This document shows positions 34,600 to 62,208 of a stretch of DNA of 64,000 bases, piece after piece (position 1 is the first letter of the stretch; every line of letters starts with the position of its first letter). Position numbers and translations under genes: made by a program. The notes beneath the pieces are model-generated. The model worked only from the letters and a program-made list of their open reading frames with translations. It was not told where the DNA came from and searched no databases. The stretch lies in contig NZ_UGTV01000015.1 in NCBI RefSeq assembly GCF_900454865.1, forward strand, positions 930,001 through 994,000. The letters are read 5' to 3'. The DNA is from Pasteurella canis (GTDB lineage Bacteria; Pseudomonadota; Gammaproteobacteria; Enterobacterales; Pasteurellaceae).

Positions 34600-35613
34600 T
34601 TAACGCATAAATAAAGCGGCTCCTCCAGTAGTAGATAATGTAGTGCCATACAATAAACTCGTTGCAAAAAAGACTAGTAAAACGCCAGCGAGCAACTTAA
34701 TTAAACTTTCACTATTATGCGGTAAGCTTGATGAAAATTGGTACCATTTGCTAATTCGTAATGCACTATGCCTTGCATATAACACAATTAAAGCAAAACA
34801 AGATAAAGTCAATCCTGTTCCTATTGCCATTGCAAAAGTTGCGATAACTCCCCACAAATAGAGATCAAGCATATAAGCTAAAAACAAAATAAAAATCGCT
34901 CCTGAACATGGTCGCATACCAATACTACAGATCACTAAAAATTGTGATTTCCAATCCATCGCAGCTGCTAACTGAGTTTGATTGGGTAAGTGTTGATGAC
35001 CACAACCACAAGATTGATGATGATCATGATGTGATGAAACTAACTGTTGCCCTACTTTAATTACATTTAGTGATGGGGTCTTAACGGAGAGAATTTGAGG
35101 TTGTTGTTTTCTCCTGCTTTTTACGTAAGATAAATAATAGTTTTTCCCATATTGATAACACCAACTTAATCCTAATAAAAATAACAAGAGAAAAGCTGTA
35201 CGTTCTAACCAAAGTTGCGTTAATTTAAAATACTGAGAAGAAAGGTTAAGTAACACAACAATAATAGATGTTGCCGCCACAGCAACAGCACCTTGCATTA
35301 AAGAAGAAAGCAAAGTCAATTTCATACTAGTTTTTAGCTGCGTTTGATGAGTAGATAAATAAGTTGCAATGATGAATTTACCATGTCCAGGACCTAAAGC
35401 ATGAAATACACCATAAAAAAAACTTATAATAATTAACCAACCACCCGCATACGCCTTATCTTCATTAATTTGATGTAAATAGCCTGACATTAACTGGTTA
35501 AAATCACGTTGCCAAATGGCTATTTTGAAAAATAAATAAGGAAATAAAAAATAAGCTGTAACACCTAATAATAACAAAATAATACTATACTTTATTGGAA
35601 AATTTATTCGCAT
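34600..35613 (-). CDS. NicO/RcnA-family nickel/cobalt transporter
   Basis: 337 residues with about six membrane helices. The first half contains HALGPGHGKFIIATYL, the HxxxxGHGK metal motif of the NicO family. A His/Cys-rich cytoplasmic loop (HHDHHQSCGCGHQH, about residue 195) should bind metal, and GMRPCSGAIFILF is the second family motif. Members either import or export Ni/Co. It overlaps the end of the upstream DUF1007 gene by 10 bases, an arrangement also seen in H. influenzae. Confidence 0.88.
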   Translation of the reverse strand: MRINFPIKYSIILLLLGVTAYFLFPYLFFKIAIWQRDFNQLMSGYLHQINEDKAYAGGWLIIISFFYGVFHALGPGHGKFIIATYLSTHQTQLKTSMKLTLLSSLMQGAVAVAATSIIVVLLNLSSQYFKLTQLWLERTAFLLLFLLGLSWCYQYGKNYYLSYVKSRRKQQPQILSVKTPSLNVIKVGQQLVSSHHDHHQSCGCGHQHLPNQTQLAAAMDWKSQFLVICSIGMRPCSGAIFILFLAYMLDLYLWGVIATFAMAIGTGLTLSCFALIVLYARHSALRISKWYQFSSSLPHNSESLIKLLAGVLLVFFATSLLYGTTLSTTGGAALFMR

Positions 35614-36245
35614 ATTAACATCACTTTTTGCGCAAATAGTACACCCAAAGAATCATCTTCATCACGCTGAGTTTGATCTAATGAATTCGCATATTGTTTA
35701 ATTTTTGCATCAACTTGTGGTTCAACAACCTCTCCACGACAATGTGTAGAAATTTGTGAAAAATCGACCGCACTTTGCTTTGTTTGATCATAATACATTG
35801 AGACATAATAAGTAGGATCATATGTCAATAAAGTGAACTGATTATTCACTAACTCTTGGGGCTTAGACAACAAAAAATCAAAATAGTACATTACTTGGTT
35901 ATTATTTGCTTTCATACCGTAATTTTGTGGTTTAGCGCTATATTTTACTTTATTTCCTTGCTTATCGAATAAATAGCTGAAATAGTGTTCATGTACAATG
36001 TTACCCATCACTTCATCAATTAATTTCTGTAATGCCTTTTTATTGCCTCTTGTTTGCCGAATATCATATAGCATCGTCGCAGAACTGGCTTCATCCAAAA
36101 CCCATTCCATTGAAAATCCAGTTAACAGCCCTTCTTTCACTAATATTTTTGTTTTCATTTCAATAAATGCATGTGGATGTGCATGAAGATTAAATGAAAA
36201 TAAGCTGATAAAAAATAAGAAAACACTAATAGAAAACGGTTTCAT
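35604..36245 (-). CDS. DUF1007 periplasmic protein linked to metal transport
   Basis: 213 residues. A signal peptide (about 1-22) precedes a mature N-terminus rich in His (HAHPHAFIEMKT), typical of DUF1007 proteins, which are commonly encoded beside NicO or zinc/nickel transporters. It probably binds the metal in the periplasm. An uptake signal lies at 35767-35775. It is the first gene of the two-gene operon. Confidence 0.85.
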   Translation of the reverse strand: MKPFSISVFLFFISLFSFNLHAHPHAFIEMKTKILVKEGLLTGFSMEWVLDEASSATMLYDIRQTRGNKKALQKLIDEVMGNIVHEHYFSYLFDKQGNKVKYSAKPQNYGMKANNNQVMYYFDFLLSKPQELVNNQFTLLTYDPTYYVSMYYDQTKQSAVDFSQISTHCRGEVVEPQVDAKIKQYANSLDQTQRDEDDSLGVLFAQKVMLICE

Positions 36246-36398
36246 TCTATCCTATCTCCGAAATGTAAATTTACGTAACAATAGCTTATAAAAGTTAATA
36301 ACATAATTCATTTTTGTTATAATAAATGCGTATTTTTTTACTAAAAATCACAAAAATAGTTACATTAAAGAGATTAAATACTTATTTAAAGTGATTTT

Positions 36399-36414
36399 TG
36401 TGACAAACTTCAAA
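36399..36414 (+). promoter_or_regulatory. Possible CRP site upstream of candidate sRNA
   Basis: TGTGA-CAAACT-TCAAA matches the CRP consensus at nine of ten fixed positions; its centre lies about 60 bases before the predicted RNA start, a class I activator position. Confidence 0.4.
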
Positions 36415-36465
36415 AATAATGTAAAAATTGTTTCACATCAGTGTAAATTTATGTAAAATACAAAC

Positions 36466-36561
36466 CGTCAAGTGATTGCTTGATATTCATAAAGTTCCTA
36501 AATAAAATAATCATAAATAGCTAAACTACTTTCCTACCCTCCAGTTCGGAGGGTTTTTTTT
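36466..36561 (+). ncRNA. Candidate Hfq-type small RNA
   Basis: About 96 bases between a promoter-like element (TTCACA at 36432, TAAAAT at 36454) and a strong intrinsic terminator (36537-36561). The 5' part can form a small hairpin (TCAAG/CTTGA), followed by an A/U-rich unpaired stretch, then the terminator stem with a U8 tail, the layout of Hfq-bound sRNAs. No ORF occupies it, the nearest upstream + gene ends 2 kb away, and ettA has its own promoter-like element downstream. It could instead be a leader attenuator of ettA. Confidence 0.45.
36537..36561 (+). terminator. Strong orphan intrinsic terminator
   Basis: CCCTCC-AGTTC-GGAGGG followed by eight T residues. No protein gene on this strand ends near it. 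Confidence 0.9.
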
Positions 36562-36569
36562 ATCTCTAA

Positions 36570-36599
36570 TTGGCTAATCTAGCAAATTTCAAGTAAAAT
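36570..36599 (+). promoter_or_regulatory. Probable ettA promoter
   Basis: TTGGCT (36570-36575), an 18-base spacer and TAAAAT (36594-36599), followed at once by an uptake signal (36601-36609). Confidence 0.45.
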
Positions 36600-36642
36600 A
36601 ACCGCACTTTTTTTCTATTTTACAAGTATAACGAGAGAAATT

Positions 36643-38313
36643 ATGTCATCACAATTTGTTTATACGATGCATCGCGTTGGCAAAATCGTGCCTCCGAAGC
36701 GTCATATTTTAAAAGATATCTCACTTAGCTTCTTTCCTGGCGCAAAAATCGGCGTACTCGGTTTAAACGGTGCGGGTAAATCGACTTTACTACGCATTAT
36801 GGCGGGAATTGATAAAGAAATTGAAGGGGAGGCTCGCCCACAGCCAGGGATTAAAATTGGTTATTTACCACAAGAACCAAAATTAGATCCTCAACAAACT
36901 GTACGTGAAGCAATTGAAGAAGCCGTGAGTGAAGTGAAACAAGCATTAACTCGCTTAGATGAAGTGTACGCGCTTTATGCTGACCCAGATGCAGATTTTG
37001 ATAAGTTAGCAGCAGAGCAAGCTAAATTAGAAGCGATTATTCAAACTCACGATGGACATAATCTTGAGAATCAATTAGAGCGAGCAGCTGATGCATTACG
37101 CCTACCAGATTGGGAGGCTAAAATCGAACATTTATCAGGGGGAGAGCGCCGCCGAGTCGCGCTTTGTCGATTACTGCTCGAAAAACCGGATATGTTACTA
37201 CTAGATGAACCAACTAACCATTTAGATGCAGAATCTGTTGCTTGGTTAGAGCGTTTCTTACATGATTATGAAGGTACCGTTGTAGCAATTACTCACGATC
37301 GTTACTTCTTAGATAACGTTGCAGGTTGGATCTTAGAACTTGACCGTGGTGAAGGTATTCCTTGGGAGGGTAATTATTCTTCTTGGTTAGAACAAAAAGA
37401 AAAACGTTTAGCCCAAGAACAAGCTGCTGAATCTGCACGTCAGAAATCAATTGAGAAAGAATTAGAATGGGTTCGCCAAAATCCAAAAGGTCGCCAAGCA
37501 AAAAGCAAAGCACGTATGGCACGCTTTGAGGAACTCAATAGTGGCGAATATCAAAAACGTAACGAAACTAATGAACTATTTATTCCACCAGGTCCACGTT
37601 TAGGTGATAAAGTCATTGAGGTACAAGGACTCACTAAATCTTATGGTGATCGTACATTAATTGATAATCTTTCATTCAGTATTCCTAAAGGGGCGATTGT
37701 AGGTATTATTGGTCCTAATGGCGCAGGTAAATCCACTTTATTCCGTATGCTTGCGGGGCAAGAGCAACCTGATTCAGGTAGTGTTACTTTAGGTGAAACA
37801 GTCGTACTTGCTTCTGTTGATCAGTTCCGTGATGCGATGGATGATAAAAAAACAGTCTGGGAAGAAGTCTCTAACGGGCAAGATATTTTACGTATAGGCA
37901 ACTTTGAAATTCCAAGCCGTGCTTATGTGGGACGCTTTAACTTTAAAGGCGTGGATCAACAAAAACGTGTAGGTGAATTATCTGGTGGTGAACGTGGTCG
38001 TTTACATCTGGCTAAACTCTTACAAGCTGGTGGTAACGTATTGTTATTAGACGAGCCAACTAACGATCTTGACGTGGAAACTCTACGTGCACTTGAAAAT
38101 GCGATCTTAGAATTCCCTGGTTGTGCAATGGTGATCTCACATGACCGCTGGTTCTTAGACCGTATCGCAACTCATATTCTAGATTACGGCGATGAAGGAA
38201 AAGTCACTTTCTATGAGGGCAACTTCTCTGACTATGAAGAGTGGAAAAAGAAAACTTTTGGTGCCGATGCAATCCAGCCACATCGAATTAAATACAAACG
38301 TATTACTAAATAA
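36643..38313 (+). CDS. ettA: Energy-dependent translational throttle protein EttA
   Basis: 556 residues, an ABC-F protein with two ATPase modules. It binds the ribosomal E site and gates the first elongation steps according to ATP/ADP ratio. Walker A motifs are GLNGAGKST (near 38) and GPNGAGKST (near 356); signatures are LSGGERRR and LSGGERGR; Walker B segments are MLLLDEPTNHLD and VLLLDEPTNDLD. Between the modules lies the P-site tRNA interaction segment with KSKARMARFEEL. The ATG follows ACGAGAG. Confidence 0.95.
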   Translation: MSSQFVYTMHRVGKIVPPKRHILKDISLSFFPGAKIGVLGLNGAGKSTLLRIMAGIDKEIEGEARPQPGIKIGYLPQEPKLDPQQTVREAIEEAVSEVKQALTRLDEVYALYADPDADFDKLAAEQAKLEAIIQTHDGHNLENQLERAADALRLPDWEAKIEHLSGGERRRVALCRLLLEKPDMLLLDEPTNHLDAESVAWLERFLHDYEGTVVAITHDRYFLDNVAGWILELDRGEGIPWEGNYSSWLEQKEKRLAQEQAAESARQKSIEKELEWVRQNPKGRQAKSKARMARFEELNSGEYQKRNETNELFIPPGPRLGDKVIEVQGLTKSYGDRTLIDNLSFSIPKGAIVGIIGPNGAGKSTLFRMLAGQEQPDSGSVTLGETVVLASVDQFRDAMDDKKTVWEEVSNGQDILRIGNFEIPSRAYVGRFNFKGVDQQKRVGELSGGERGRLHLAKLLQAGGNVLLLDEPTNDLDVETLRALENAILEFPGCAMVISHDRWFLDRIATHILDYGDEGKVTFYEGNFSDYEEWKKKTFGADAIQPHRIKYKRITK

Positions 38314-55060: not shown

Positions 55061-58000
55061 ATGCAGGTCAGTAGAAGAAAGTTCTTCAAGATCTGTGCAG
55101 GGGGAATGGCGGGAACATCTGCTGCAATGTTGGGCTTTGCGCCAACAGAAGCATTAGCAGCTCCTCGCAATTACAAATTATTGCGAGCGAAAGAAACGCG
55201 TAATACCTGTACTTACTGTGCCGTTGGTTGCGGTATGTTGCTTTATAGTTTGGGCGATGGCTCAAAAAATACAAAAGGCAAATTATTCCATATTGAAGGT
55301 GACCCAGATCATCCAGTGAGTCGCGGTGCACTCTGTCCTAAAGGTGCGGGCGCATTGGATTATGTCAACAGCGAGCGTCGAGTGCTTTATCCAGAAGTAC
55401 GTGAAGCTGGCTCAAAAGAATGGAAACGTATTTCTTGGCATGAAGCGATTGAACGTATCGCTAGACATATAAAAACCGATCGAGATGAAAATTTTATTAC
55501 TCATAACGATGCTGGTGTTGAGGTTAACCGTTGGATGACATCAGGATTCTTAGCTGGTTCTGCATGTAGTAATGAAACAGGTATCCTAACACAAAAATTC
55601 GTTCGTTCTCTCGGTATGATTTTTACCGACAACCAAGCGAGTATCTGACACGGACCAACGGTAGCAAGTCTTGCTCCATCATTTGGTCGCGGTGCGATGA
55701 CAAATCACTGGGTTGATATCAAAAATGCCGATCTTGTTATAGTAATGGGTGGTAACGCCGCAGAAGCTCATCCTGTAGGATTCCGCTGGGCAATTGAAGC
55801 GAAAAAACAAAACGGTGCTAAGTTAATGGTGGTTGATCCACGCTTTAACCGCACAGCTGCTGTTGCTGATATCTATATGCCATTACGTCCAGGTACGGAT
55901 ATTGCTTTCCTATCAGGCGTTATTCGTTATTTGTTAAACAATGACAAAATCCAGCACGAATATGTTAAACATTACACTAACGCAACATTTTTAGTAAATG
56001 AAAACTTCAAATTTGAAGACGGCTTATTCTCTGGTTACGATCCTGAAACACGTAAATATGATCGCTCAACATGGGCATATCAATTTGATGAAAATGGTGA
56101 GCCGAAACGTGATATGAGTATGCAAGATCCACGTTGTGTGCTCAATATGTTAAAACAACATGTTTCTCGTTATACACCAGAAATGGTTGAACGTATTACT
56201 GGTACAAAACAAAAAGATTTCCAAATTTTCTGTGAGGAAATCGCAAAAACTTGTGCACCAGATAAAGCCGCTACTTTTATGTATGCATTAGGCTGGACTC
56301 AACATACTGTTGGTTCACAAAATATTCGTACGATGGCAATGATCCAGTTACTATTAGGTAATATTGGTGTGTCTGGTGGTGGTGTAAATGCATTACGTGG
56401 TCACTCAAATGTACAAGGGATTACAGATTTAGGCCTATTCCCTAATCGTCTACCTGCTTATCTTCCATTACCAACGGAAACAGATACGACACTAGATGTA
56501 TTCTTAAACCGTATCACCCCTAAACGTTTAATGAAAGATCAAGTCAACTATTGGCAAAACACGCCTAAATTTATGGTCAGTATGCTGAAAACGTTTTATG
56601 GTAATAATGGTACTCAGGATAACGAGTTTGGTTATCACTATTTACCAAAACTACCAAAAGGCGGCATGGATCATTTACGTTACATTGAGGAAATGTATCA
56701 GGGTCGTGTAAATGGTTATTTCTGTCAAGGTTTCAATCCGATTGCCTCTTATCCAAATTCAGGCAAGATCATTAAAGCACTAAGTAACTTGAAATACTTA
56801 GTCATTTTTGATCCACTAATTACTGATACTTCTGAATTCTGGGTAAATCATGGTGAGCATAATGATGTAAAAACAGAAGATATTCAAACTGAGGTCTTCC
56901 GTTTACCAACAACTTGTTTCGCTGAAGAAGATGGCTCAATTGCCAATTCTGGCCGTTGGCTACAATGGCACTGGAAAGGTGCGGAACCACCTGGTGAGGC
57001 AAAAACAGATGGTGAAATTCTATCTGAAATTCGAGCTGAATTAATCCATCTATACAAAACAGAAGGTGGAAAAGCACCACTTGAACCATTAGAAGCGATG
57101 AGCTGGGATTATGCAAATCCATTAGAACCAAAAGCAGAAGAAGTGGCTAAAGAAAATAATGGTTATGCATTAGAAGATCTCCTTGATGCAAACGGCAATG
57201 TGATTCTGAAAAAAGGGCAATTGCTTTCAAGCTTTGGTCAAATGCGTGATGATGGTAGCACTTCTGGAGGTTGCTGGATCTATACAGGTCAATGGACAGA
57301 AAAAGGTAACCAAATGGCAAACCGTGATAATTCTGACCCATCTAACTTAGGTAATACATTGGGTTGGGCATTCGCATGGCCACTGAATCGTCGTATTTTA
57401 TATAACCGTGCAAGTGCTGATTTAGCGGGTAATCCATTTAATCCAAAACGCCCATTAGTAAAATGGAATGGCAAAAACTGGAACTATATTGACGTGGCTG
57501 ACTTCGGTAGTGCACCGCCAAATAGCCCGACATTACCATTTATTATGCAGCCAGAAGGTGTGAGTGGCTTATTCGTACGCGAGCGTATGGTTGATGGCCC
57601 ATTCCCAGAACATTATGAACCAATGGAGAGCCCAATTGGAACAAACCCACTACATCCAAATGTAGTCTCTAGCCCAGTTGCTCGAATTTTACCATCAGAT
57701 AAAGAGGATTTAGGTACATCTGCAGACTTCCCTTACGTTGGTACCACTTATCGTTTAACTGAACATTTCCATTACTGGACTAAGAACTCTCTATTAAACG
57801 TTATTGCTCAACCAGAGCAATTCGTTGAAATTGGCGAAGATCTTGCTAAAGAAAAAGGCATTAATAATGGTGATACAGTGAAAGTCAGCTCAAAACGTGG
57901 CTATATCAAAGCTGTTGCTGTTGTCACGAAACGTATCCGTACACTAATGTCTGATGGAAAACCAATTCATACTATAGGTATCCCAATTCACTGGGGTTTC

Positions 58001-58120
58001 TCTGGTGTAGGTAAAAAAGGCTTCTTTGCGAATAACTTAACTGTTCGTACTGGTGATGCTAATACACAAACACCTGAGTCAAAATGTATGTTAGTTAATA
58101 TTGAGAAAGTGGGGGCTTAA
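55061..58120 (+). CDS. fdnG: Formate dehydrogenase-N alpha subunit, selenocysteine-containing
   Basis: 1019 residues if the TGA at 55646-55648 (codon 196) is read as selenocysteine, the same position as in E. coli FdnG. The frame continues [10 protein letters not shown] without a break. A Tat signal ([15 protein letters not shown]) targets the folded protein to the periplasm. A [4Fe-4S] site ([12 protein letters not shown]...CPKG) and bis-MGD domains follow. It oxidises formate and passes electrons to the beta and gamma subunits. It is the first gene of fdnGHI, with AAGGAG before the ATG. In Haemophilus it is called fdxG. Confidence 0.96.
55646..55689 (+). promoter_or_regulatory. Selenocysteine codon and bacterial SECIS hairpin
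   Basis: Right after the TGA, GACCAA (55653-55658) pairs with TTGGTC (55683-55688), and an inner AGCA/TGCT stem (55663-55675) presents an AGTCT loop, matching the layout of E. coli fdn/fdh SECIS elements bound by SelB. Confidence 0.88.
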
Positions 58121-60810: not shown

Positions 60811-61482
60811 TTATTGAAGGGCTGATAAACGTTGTTGTGCTAAAGCAGCAAGTTCACCTTGTTGATGAGATAATTTTTGATACCAATAAACAGCTTGTTT
60901 CTTGTTTTTCTTGGTACCTTCTCCTTTTTCATACATCATTGCTAAACGATATTGTGCATCATGATTACCTGCTTCCGCTGCTTTTTTAAACCATTTAAAT
61001 GCGTTAGAAAGTTGTTTTAGTTCATTTTCATAAATTTGTCCGAGTACCATCATCGCATCTTGCGAACCTGAATTTGCTGTTTTCTCGAATAACTTAATAC
61101 TATGTTGAATATCTTTCTTAACACTATTGCCTTGTAAATAAAATACAGCTAAGTTATTGATTGCTTTGATGCTTCCTTTCTCCGCAGCTTCACTAAACCA
61201 CCAATACGCTTTTTCGAAATCCTGTTCAACCCCCTGTCCTCGCGCATATAAAATACCTAAATTCGCTTGAGCTTGATAATCCCCTTTCTGCGCTAAAGGT
61301 AAAATTAACTCAAAAGCGGCTTTCCAATCTTGCTTATCTGCAGCCTGCAAAATCAATTGTCGGCGATCGTCATCACTCAATTCTTGCAAAACTTGTTCAT
61401 TTTCAACCGCACTTGACGCTAATATCTGAGTATGTACGAATAACGCGCTAAATAACATACCCAATACAATCATTTTTTTCAT
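60811..61482 (-). CDS. Sel1-repeat periplasmic protein
   Basis: 223 residues. A signal peptide (about 1-22) is followed by about four Sel1-like repeats of ~36 residues (for example AQANLGILYARGQGVEQDFE and AQYRLAMMYEKGEGTKKNKK). Sel1 repeats form alpha-solenoids for protein-protein contact. No specific role is evident. An uptake signal lies at 61406-61414. It begins 9 bases after the YwiC-like stop. Confidence 0.85.
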   Translation of the reverse strand: MKKMIVLGMLFSALFVHTQILASSAVENEQVLQELSDDDRRQLILQAADKQDWKAAFELILPLAQKGDYQAQANLGILYARGQGVEQDFEKAYWWFSEAAEKGSIKAINNLAVFYLQGNSVKKDIQHSIKLFEKTANSGSQDAMMVLGQIYENELKQLSNAFKWFKKAAEAGNHDAQYRLAMMYEKGEGTKKNKKQAVYWYQKLSHQQGELAALAQQRLSALQ

Positions 61483-61491
61483 AGCTAAACC

Positions 61492-62208
61492 TTATAATGT
61501 TGCCACTAATAACATCACAAAAAAGATGAAAGAAACTACCATTTCAACTAACCCAACTTGTTTTACGCTAAGTTTAATTTGTGGTAAACAAACAGCACGA
61601 ATTAATGGTGGTAAATAAGCTAATGCTAACAAATATTGTTGCAAAGGTAAAAACATCAATACACAAAGTGAATGAAAAATAATAGAGGCTTTCAGATAAA
61701 TTGGATTTTTACGCTCTCTCAAAACAGACTTAACATATAATGTTGTACCAATAAAAAATAAGCTGGGATATAACGCAACTAACCAGATTTCAGCATCAAG
61801 TCGACGCTCAGCAAAATAATACGCAGCCATTCCTGCAATTGCGAAAATAACGATACCAGCGAAGTCATTTAATAGCGCACGTTCATCTTTTTGTTTCACA
61901 TAATAAATATTTACAGCAACAAATGGCAACATTGCAATCACAAAGTAAATAATATGCCAGTTATACCATAATGCGGGTACGGCAAATAATGCACTGACTC
62001 CACCATAAATCCAGCTCCATTTTATATTCAGTGGCATATTTCTGCCTTTGAATAAGTTCAAAAAAGGATAAGTCATCAGATACAAGGCAGCCCAAGCTAA
62101 AAATAAGAAAAGATACTGCCAATTTGGTTGCGATAAAAGCATACCATACAAAAATGGTATGAGTGCCATCACAATTGCACCATGTTGATTAGAAATAAGT
62201 AACTTCAT
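61492..62208 (-). CDS. YwiC-like membrane protein
   Basis: 238 residues with about eight hydrophobic helices. The start (NQHGAIVMALIPFLYG) and the motif YLMTYPFLNLFKGRN match the YwiC-like family, whose function is unknown. It probably shares a transcript with the Sel1 gene. Confidence 0.82.
   Translation of the reverse strand: MKLLISNQHGAIVMALIPFLYGMLLSQPNWQYLFLFLAWAALYLMTYPFLNLFKGRNMPLNIKWSWIYGGVSALFAVPALWYNWHIIYFVIAMLPFVAVNIYYVKQKDERALLNDFAGIVIFAIAGMAAYYFAERRLDAEIWLVALYPSLFFIGTTLYVKSVLRERKNPIYLKASIIFHSLCVLMFLPLQQYLLALAYLPPLIRAVCLPQIKLSVKQVGLVEMVVSFIFFVMLLVATL

Follow-up and report, generated by a model that had tools for sequence, protein, structure and literature searches.

A conserved small RNA gene with a putative FNR-activated promoter upstream of ettA in Pasteurellaceae

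FNR is a protein that senses the lack of oxygen, and FNR-activated small RNAs have been described in Enterobacteriaceae and Neisseria. The sequence of the enterobacterial one, FnrS, includes a seed of the anti-Shine-Dalgarno type, resembling that of the RNA described here, and the gonococcal one has a meningococcal counterpart, AniS. FnrS is induced under anaerobic conditions in an FNR-dependent way and, through base pairing, represses mRNAs of aerobic metabolism. CyaR, in turn, is a CRP-activated small RNA, and the classical place of a class I activator site is -61.5. According to the sections of one report that deal with these RNAs (PMC3032703), fnrS homologues were not seen outside Enterobacteriaceae at that time, and the FNR sites of both FnrS and the gonococcal RNA are at -41.5; the latter RNA, 108 nt long and strongly induced anaerobically, consists of an FNR-box promoter, a 5′ stem-loop, an unstructured middle and a terminator. 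Table 3 of another report includes Rna02 of Actinobacillus pleuropneumoniae, whose family is AaHKsRNA20 (RF02898), among the RNAs recovered with Hfq (PMC9577009).

Here we describe a small RNA locus found in a stretch of 64,000 nucleotides of the Pasteurella canis genome, referred to as the window. Comparison across the family indicates that it is a real, independently conserved gene of roughly 96 bases, which forms a new family among small RNAs of an already described kind. The original prediction had started from a terminator without a preceding gene on its strand, and this was confirmed: the stem leads into a T run, and no plus-strand open frame of at least 60 aa ends just before it, the nearest one (35998-36186, 62 aa) being antisense to the DUF1007 gene. 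A promoter-like element (TTCACA-16-TAAAAT), a CRP-like site, a 5′ hairpin and an A/U-rich, unpaired linker between that hairpin and the terminator had been pointed out as well, and all of them are present in the sequence (Table 1).

Table 1. Features of the small RNA locus and of its neighbours, in window coordinates.
Feature	Position	Strand	Remarks
DUF1007 gene, divergent upstream neighbour	35604..36245	-	Pfam PF06226
Activator box, FNR-type, hybrid in this genome	36400..36413	+	GTGACAAACTTCAA; left half TGTGA of CRP type, right half TCAA of FNR type
-10 element TAAAAT	36454..36459	+	TAnnnT at the same place in 81/83 orthologues vs 13/83 in a control stretch
Small RNA gene, about 96 nt	36466..36561	+	match of model R1 at G000:C1:966466-966561, 125.3 bits, the window sequence being itself included in R1
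5′ hairpin, 7 pairs	36467..36484	+	both-side changes at 3/7 pairs among 36 sequences
Seed A CATAAAGTTCCTAAA, conserved, unpaired	36488..36502	+	complement of the usual ribosome-binding site and the start codon after it (TTTAGGAACTTTATG)
Seed B CTACTTTCCT, conserved, unpaired, anti-Shine-Dalgarno type	36526..36535	+	exact in 81/84 loci
Intrinsic terminator	36536..36561	+	7-pair stem 36536-36554, then U tract; both-side changes at 4/7 pairs
ettA promoter motif TTTCAAGTAAAAT	36587..36599	+	like motif before ettA in genomes without the small RNA
ettA, downstream neighbour, outside the RNA unit	36643..38313	+	NCBIfam NF008775, 1020.5 bits

The predicted 5′ end of the RNA, near 36466, was placed from the position of the -10 element and from the conserved hairpin. 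The two seeds, of which seed A has a core (CATAAAGTTCCTAA) conserved to the letter in 83/84 loci and in 19/19 of a smaller set, would be the parts that pair with mRNA, and the U tract of the terminator is likely the Hfq-binding end. From a single sequence, the statistics of the locus are weak: a scan of 35700-37300 gave 10 promoter-like sites vs 6.4 expected and one terminator vs 0.9 expected, and the folding z-score of the window RNA is -2.40, with 4 of 200 shuffles folding equally well. Despite this, the small RNA stands above the chance level because it is conserved across the family.

Indeed, the covariance model R1, built from 11 orthologues, matches 84 of 140 Pasteurellaceae genomes, distributed in 21 of 43 genera, with one copy in each except G094, which has two; under stricter filters, 56 of the 140 genomes gave no match. 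Two other members of the window's genus, Pasteurella oralis (the sequenced isolate WCHPO000540) and Bisgaard Taxon 45, are among the carriers. A search of 61 genomes at the DNA level found matches in 21, 19 of them carrying the small RNA; the two remaining matches (G034 and G054) are short, with best R1 scores of 17.8 and 22.1 bits. The second of these, in another family of the same order, lies just before a gene (L020, G054:C103, 1484-1569; E 0.0075 in 6 kb) and may be either a chance match or a distant relative, so that it is excluded from the member count. In 16 orthologues picked for diversity out of the 83 others, identity with the window amounts to 85-100% over the initial 73 bases of the RNA, 50-92% over the promoter spacer and 41-74% over the downstream flank.

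Furthermore, both stems show compensatory changes. Among 36 matches, taken from 35 selected loci, whose alignment was fitted to the model and whose cells count sequences and not evolutionary events, 99.4% of the cells are paired and 41 are double-change cells, vs 10.3 after shuffling and at most 4 with the partner slid; none of 500 shuffles was as high for paired cells, double-change cells or score. The first, unfitted set (n = 11) has 100% of its cells paired and 12 double changes vs 4.8, with two of five measures (pairs changed on both sides and further pair types) not clear of the shuffles. The search in relatives that had been proposed as a check of the candidate therefore speaks in its favor, as does its occurrence without an adjacent ettA, which is treated below. 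Between genera, the linker carries insertions of 1, 2, 4 and 5 bases; since these are not multiples of three and would shift any frame across it, a coding function for this stretch is disfavoured.

A possible single origin was examined on an ettA tree of 30 small-RNA-positive and 19 negative rows; this tree is poorly resolved, and the small RNA is scattered over it in patches (12 changes vs 15.3 when shuffled, 21 of 500 shuffles being as low). Among 20 genomes without an R1 match that were searched for diverged copies, ettA was located in 19, and no such copy was detected before it (best E 0.26). The two copies of G094 are separated by 1.5 kb, and the diverged one (42.7 bits) lies directly before ettA (L148, G094:C2:139493-143103).

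With locus L116 dropped for its truncated upstream sequence, 83 loci were scored over one class I interval of nine positions, with the box centre 57-65 bases before the hairpin. Of these, 69 agree there with the FNR box TTGATnnnnATCAA in at least nine of ten positions and 34 in all ten; among 332 control windows drawn from these loci, none scores 9 or more and two score 8 or more. The distance between the box centre and the first base of the -10 element is 48 bases in 71 of 81 loci with such an element, and 46-49 bases in 79 (47 in the window); this fixed distance puts the box near -60, and the class I spacing of the original prediction is thereby retained. Over the 81 scored sites, which were selected by FNR score after exclusion of two under 7/10, the right half is the TCAA of FNR, not the TCAC of CRP, in 80-81 per position, and in the left half 50 sites carry the T of FNR and 25 the G of CRP. 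No box is recognisable in L017, a genome positive for the RNA, and the box is displaced further up by 9 bases in L019 and by 7 in L144.

An FNR box at a productive position is thus a trait of the family, with a score of only 7/10 in the window genome and in three of the six members of its genus. In the window, another upstream 14-mer reaches 8/10 for FNR, a score also attained by 20% of the shuffles. The window genome encodes Fnr (491 bits vs a cut-off of 228, with the CAIHCQDCSISQLC cluster). The family-wide regulator would be of the FNR type, and the activation by CRP that was originally proposed finds no support as a general rule.

We consider it probable that this RNA is an FNR-activated, base-pairing and likely Hfq-dependent regulator, which would work in the way of the enterobacterial FnrS. 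It would be a trans-acting molecule of about 96 nt made from its own promoter: without oxygen, FNR bound to the box some 60 bases before the start, in class I position, would recruit RNA polymerase, and transcription would stop at the strong terminator. The hairpin would protect the 5′ end of the product, an unpaired linker rich in A and U would follow, and Hfq would hold the terminal U tail; the two anti-ribosome-binding-site seeds of the linker would pair with the start regions of mRNAs, blocking or destabilising them. Transcription, dependence on FNR, binding of Hfq and repression of targets are all predictions made from sequence, which offers a promoter proper to the RNA, a terminator with a long U tail and an hfq gene in the same genome. 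As the promoter carries an FNR site, the RNA probably helps in the adjustment to life without oxygen.

Regarding the targets, the linker was compared with 741 gene starts, a rough prediction by script that covered 864 kb of a genome of 2.34 Mb. Under one scheme its pairing outdid that of each of 10 shuffled linkers at ranks 10, 20 and 100 (not at 1, 5 and 50), and under another that of each of 8 at ranks 10 and 50 (not at 1, 5, 20 and 100); this amounts to no more than a weak tendency. The pattern complementary to seed A, searched in six genomes, gave fewer matches than its reversed control in five, and inspection by eye of 14 seed A sites revealed no gene common to several genera. Two of those sites, both in the window's genus (L100 and L103), look alike.

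Three genes were considered and discarded as conserved targets: sodC, with pairing kept in 2 of the 25 loci read (the window genome and G003; one further locus lacks a start), glnB, with pairing kept in 2 of 30 loci, and a Sel1-repeat gene, with pairing kept in 3 of 21; two other Sel1 loci (L269 and L273) pair elsewhere, over 13 and 10 bases. At window 60811-62208 (minus strand), a YwiC-like gene precedes the Sel1-repeat gene, whose start (GTTTAGCTAT) is the part that could pair with the small RNA in the three loci. In two other genomes (L155 and L156), the small RNA gene adjoins a YwiC-like gene, by eye the same one.

Activation by CRP has to be weighed against this reading. It would imply that cAMP-CRP bound to TGTGACAAACTTCAAA activates the RNA on poor carbon sources, and there are reasons to take it into account: the crp gene is present in the window genome, and the box scores 9/10 for CRP in 23 of 84 loci, including the window (where FNR scores 7/10) and all six members of its genus. 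The left half has drifted here to the TGTGA of CRP, which is the reason for the earlier CRP call and makes an input of CRP possible at this particular promoter. However, the palindrome TGTGA-N6-TCACA is complete in none of the 84 loci, the best score being 9/10 with a right half of the FNR type, and the 34 of 83 loci whose FNR box is both perfect and properly placed score 6-7 for CRP. A genuine contrast is provided by AaHKsRNA20, with a CRP box of 9-10/10 in 6/6 loci examined. We therefore regard a CRP-activated small RNA as unlikely. A related idea, tentative and rather doubtful, is that the family has seen a rewiring of this promoter: a pure FNR site would be ancestral, and the hybrids of g1 (the genus of the window) and of genera such as g8 and g15 would respond to both oxygen and carbon, or would have partly switched regulator. 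CRP scores are 9/10, with FNR scores of 7-9, in all six g1 and all three g8 loci, and both scores are 9/10 in six of the seven g15 loci; a CRP-type left half joined to an FNR-type right half would let the same RNA answer both signals or mark such a partial switch. The change would presumably have run from FNR to hybrid.

The other two alternatives concern not the activator but the nature of the RNA itself. Transcription starting at 36466 might only produce a leader, with the terminator controlling read-through into ettA, as the original prediction had itself proposed as its refutation, and ettA does begin at most 251 bases downstream in 65 of the 84 loci. Nevertheless, it is 742-1573 bases away in nine loci, with open frames between (eight belong to one genus, at 742-890 bases, and the ninth is at 1573), and is absent from the 1-1.5 kb stretch read downstream in ten, so that in 19 of 84 loci ettA is either distant or outside the stretch read. 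Moreover, ettA keeps a promoter motif of its own, as was also predicted: a TTCAAGTAAAAT-like motif follows the small RNA in 69 of 84 loci (reversed-motif control, 7) and precedes ettA even where the small RNA is missing, in 14 of 19 genomes (control, 0/19). On gene order and on this motif the leader was rejected, and we hold it to be extremely improbable. Finally, the RNA could act by binding a protein instead of by base pairing, a notion favored by the fact that no conserved target was found; yet the unpaired anti-ribosome-binding-site linker is its most conserved part and the letters of the stems vary, which makes protein binding very unlikely in comparison with the pairing role that we propose.

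Two further observations refer to the surroundings of ettA. Eight loci of genus g7, L045 and L047 among them, have small open frames in the interval from the small RNA to ettA; by eye, these frames look antitoxin-like. Just 3′ of the ettA promoter motif, at window 36601-36609, there is a 9-mer, ACCGCACTT, that we take to be uptake-signal-like and that has the same place in a number of the other aligned genera.

Rfam gave nothing at the locus at gathering score. A permissive search (up to E 10) returned five matches in the window, with E 1.2-8.9 and all far below the gathering scores, FnrS not being among them. In another region of the window (55061-58120), a gene split by one stop, presumably formate-dehydrogenase-like, contains a SECIS_3 match (RF01989) at 55643-55701; this is ordinary use of selenocysteine. 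As for the literature, we found no description of the small RNA in the texts consulted, and a text search with six pieces of 14-15 letters matched nothing, although it may be one of the unnamed entries in the Histophilus or A. pleuropneumoniae lists. Table 3 of PMC9577009 includes 14 Hfq-bound RNAs, none flanked by a named ettA and several with bare locus numbers as flanks, and in Table 3 of PMC10204968 the Histophilus RNAs are given by locus number, so that an orthologue may sit there unnamed.

If the proposed reading is true, this would be the third FNR-activated small RNA, spread over 21 genera and without a sequence match to FnrS, suggesting that FNR repeatedly acquires a small-RNA arm. 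With its exact sequence and promoter, it would also make a repressive component of the anaerobic response testable in Pasteurellaceae, a family that includes mucosal bacteria of animals and humans, and the natural variants of the promoter would constitute material for studying how a site shifts between FNR and CRP.

Within this family, a described RNA to be compared is AaHKsRNA20, of similar size and with the words AAATAGC and CTTTCC in common. It differs in occupying a separate locus of the same genome, and its similarity stays within the range of chance (reached by 443 of 2000 shuffles), by which a sibling by descent was discarded; its model scores 16.9 bits (E 4.7) at our locus, below the gathering score of 43 bits, and has its true member elsewhere. 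That member (G000:C1:780844-780920, minus strand; also L064 and L157) has a CRP-type box (9-10/10) about 100 bases before a GCTTTCC motif, and the same type of box in the six loci examined, drawn from the 22 genomes that matched, makes AaHKsRNA20 likely a CRP-activated small RNA. CyaR (RF00112) matches weakly, with 13.8 bits (E 7.7) vs a gathering score of 47, and differs from the present RNA, whose box is of the FNR type across the family.

The model of FnrS itself (RF01796, frnS) matched in 0/21 genomes, 13 of them Pasteurellaceae, with E. coli as a positive control. FnrS has its FNR site in class II position, at -41.5, according to the sections of PMC3032703 mentioned above, whereas the box described here would lie near -60 from the predicted start, in class I; on both grounds, membership in the FnrS family was rejected. 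The likeness is one of architecture: an FNR box in the promoter, an unpaired stretch and an intrinsic terminator. The same is true for the FnrS-type RNA of Neisseria gonorrhoeae, which has its FNR site at -41.5 and another genomic place, but which, to judge from its description in that part of the source, shares with the Pasteurellaceae RNA an FNR-box promoter, a 5′ stem-loop, an unstructured middle and a terminator.
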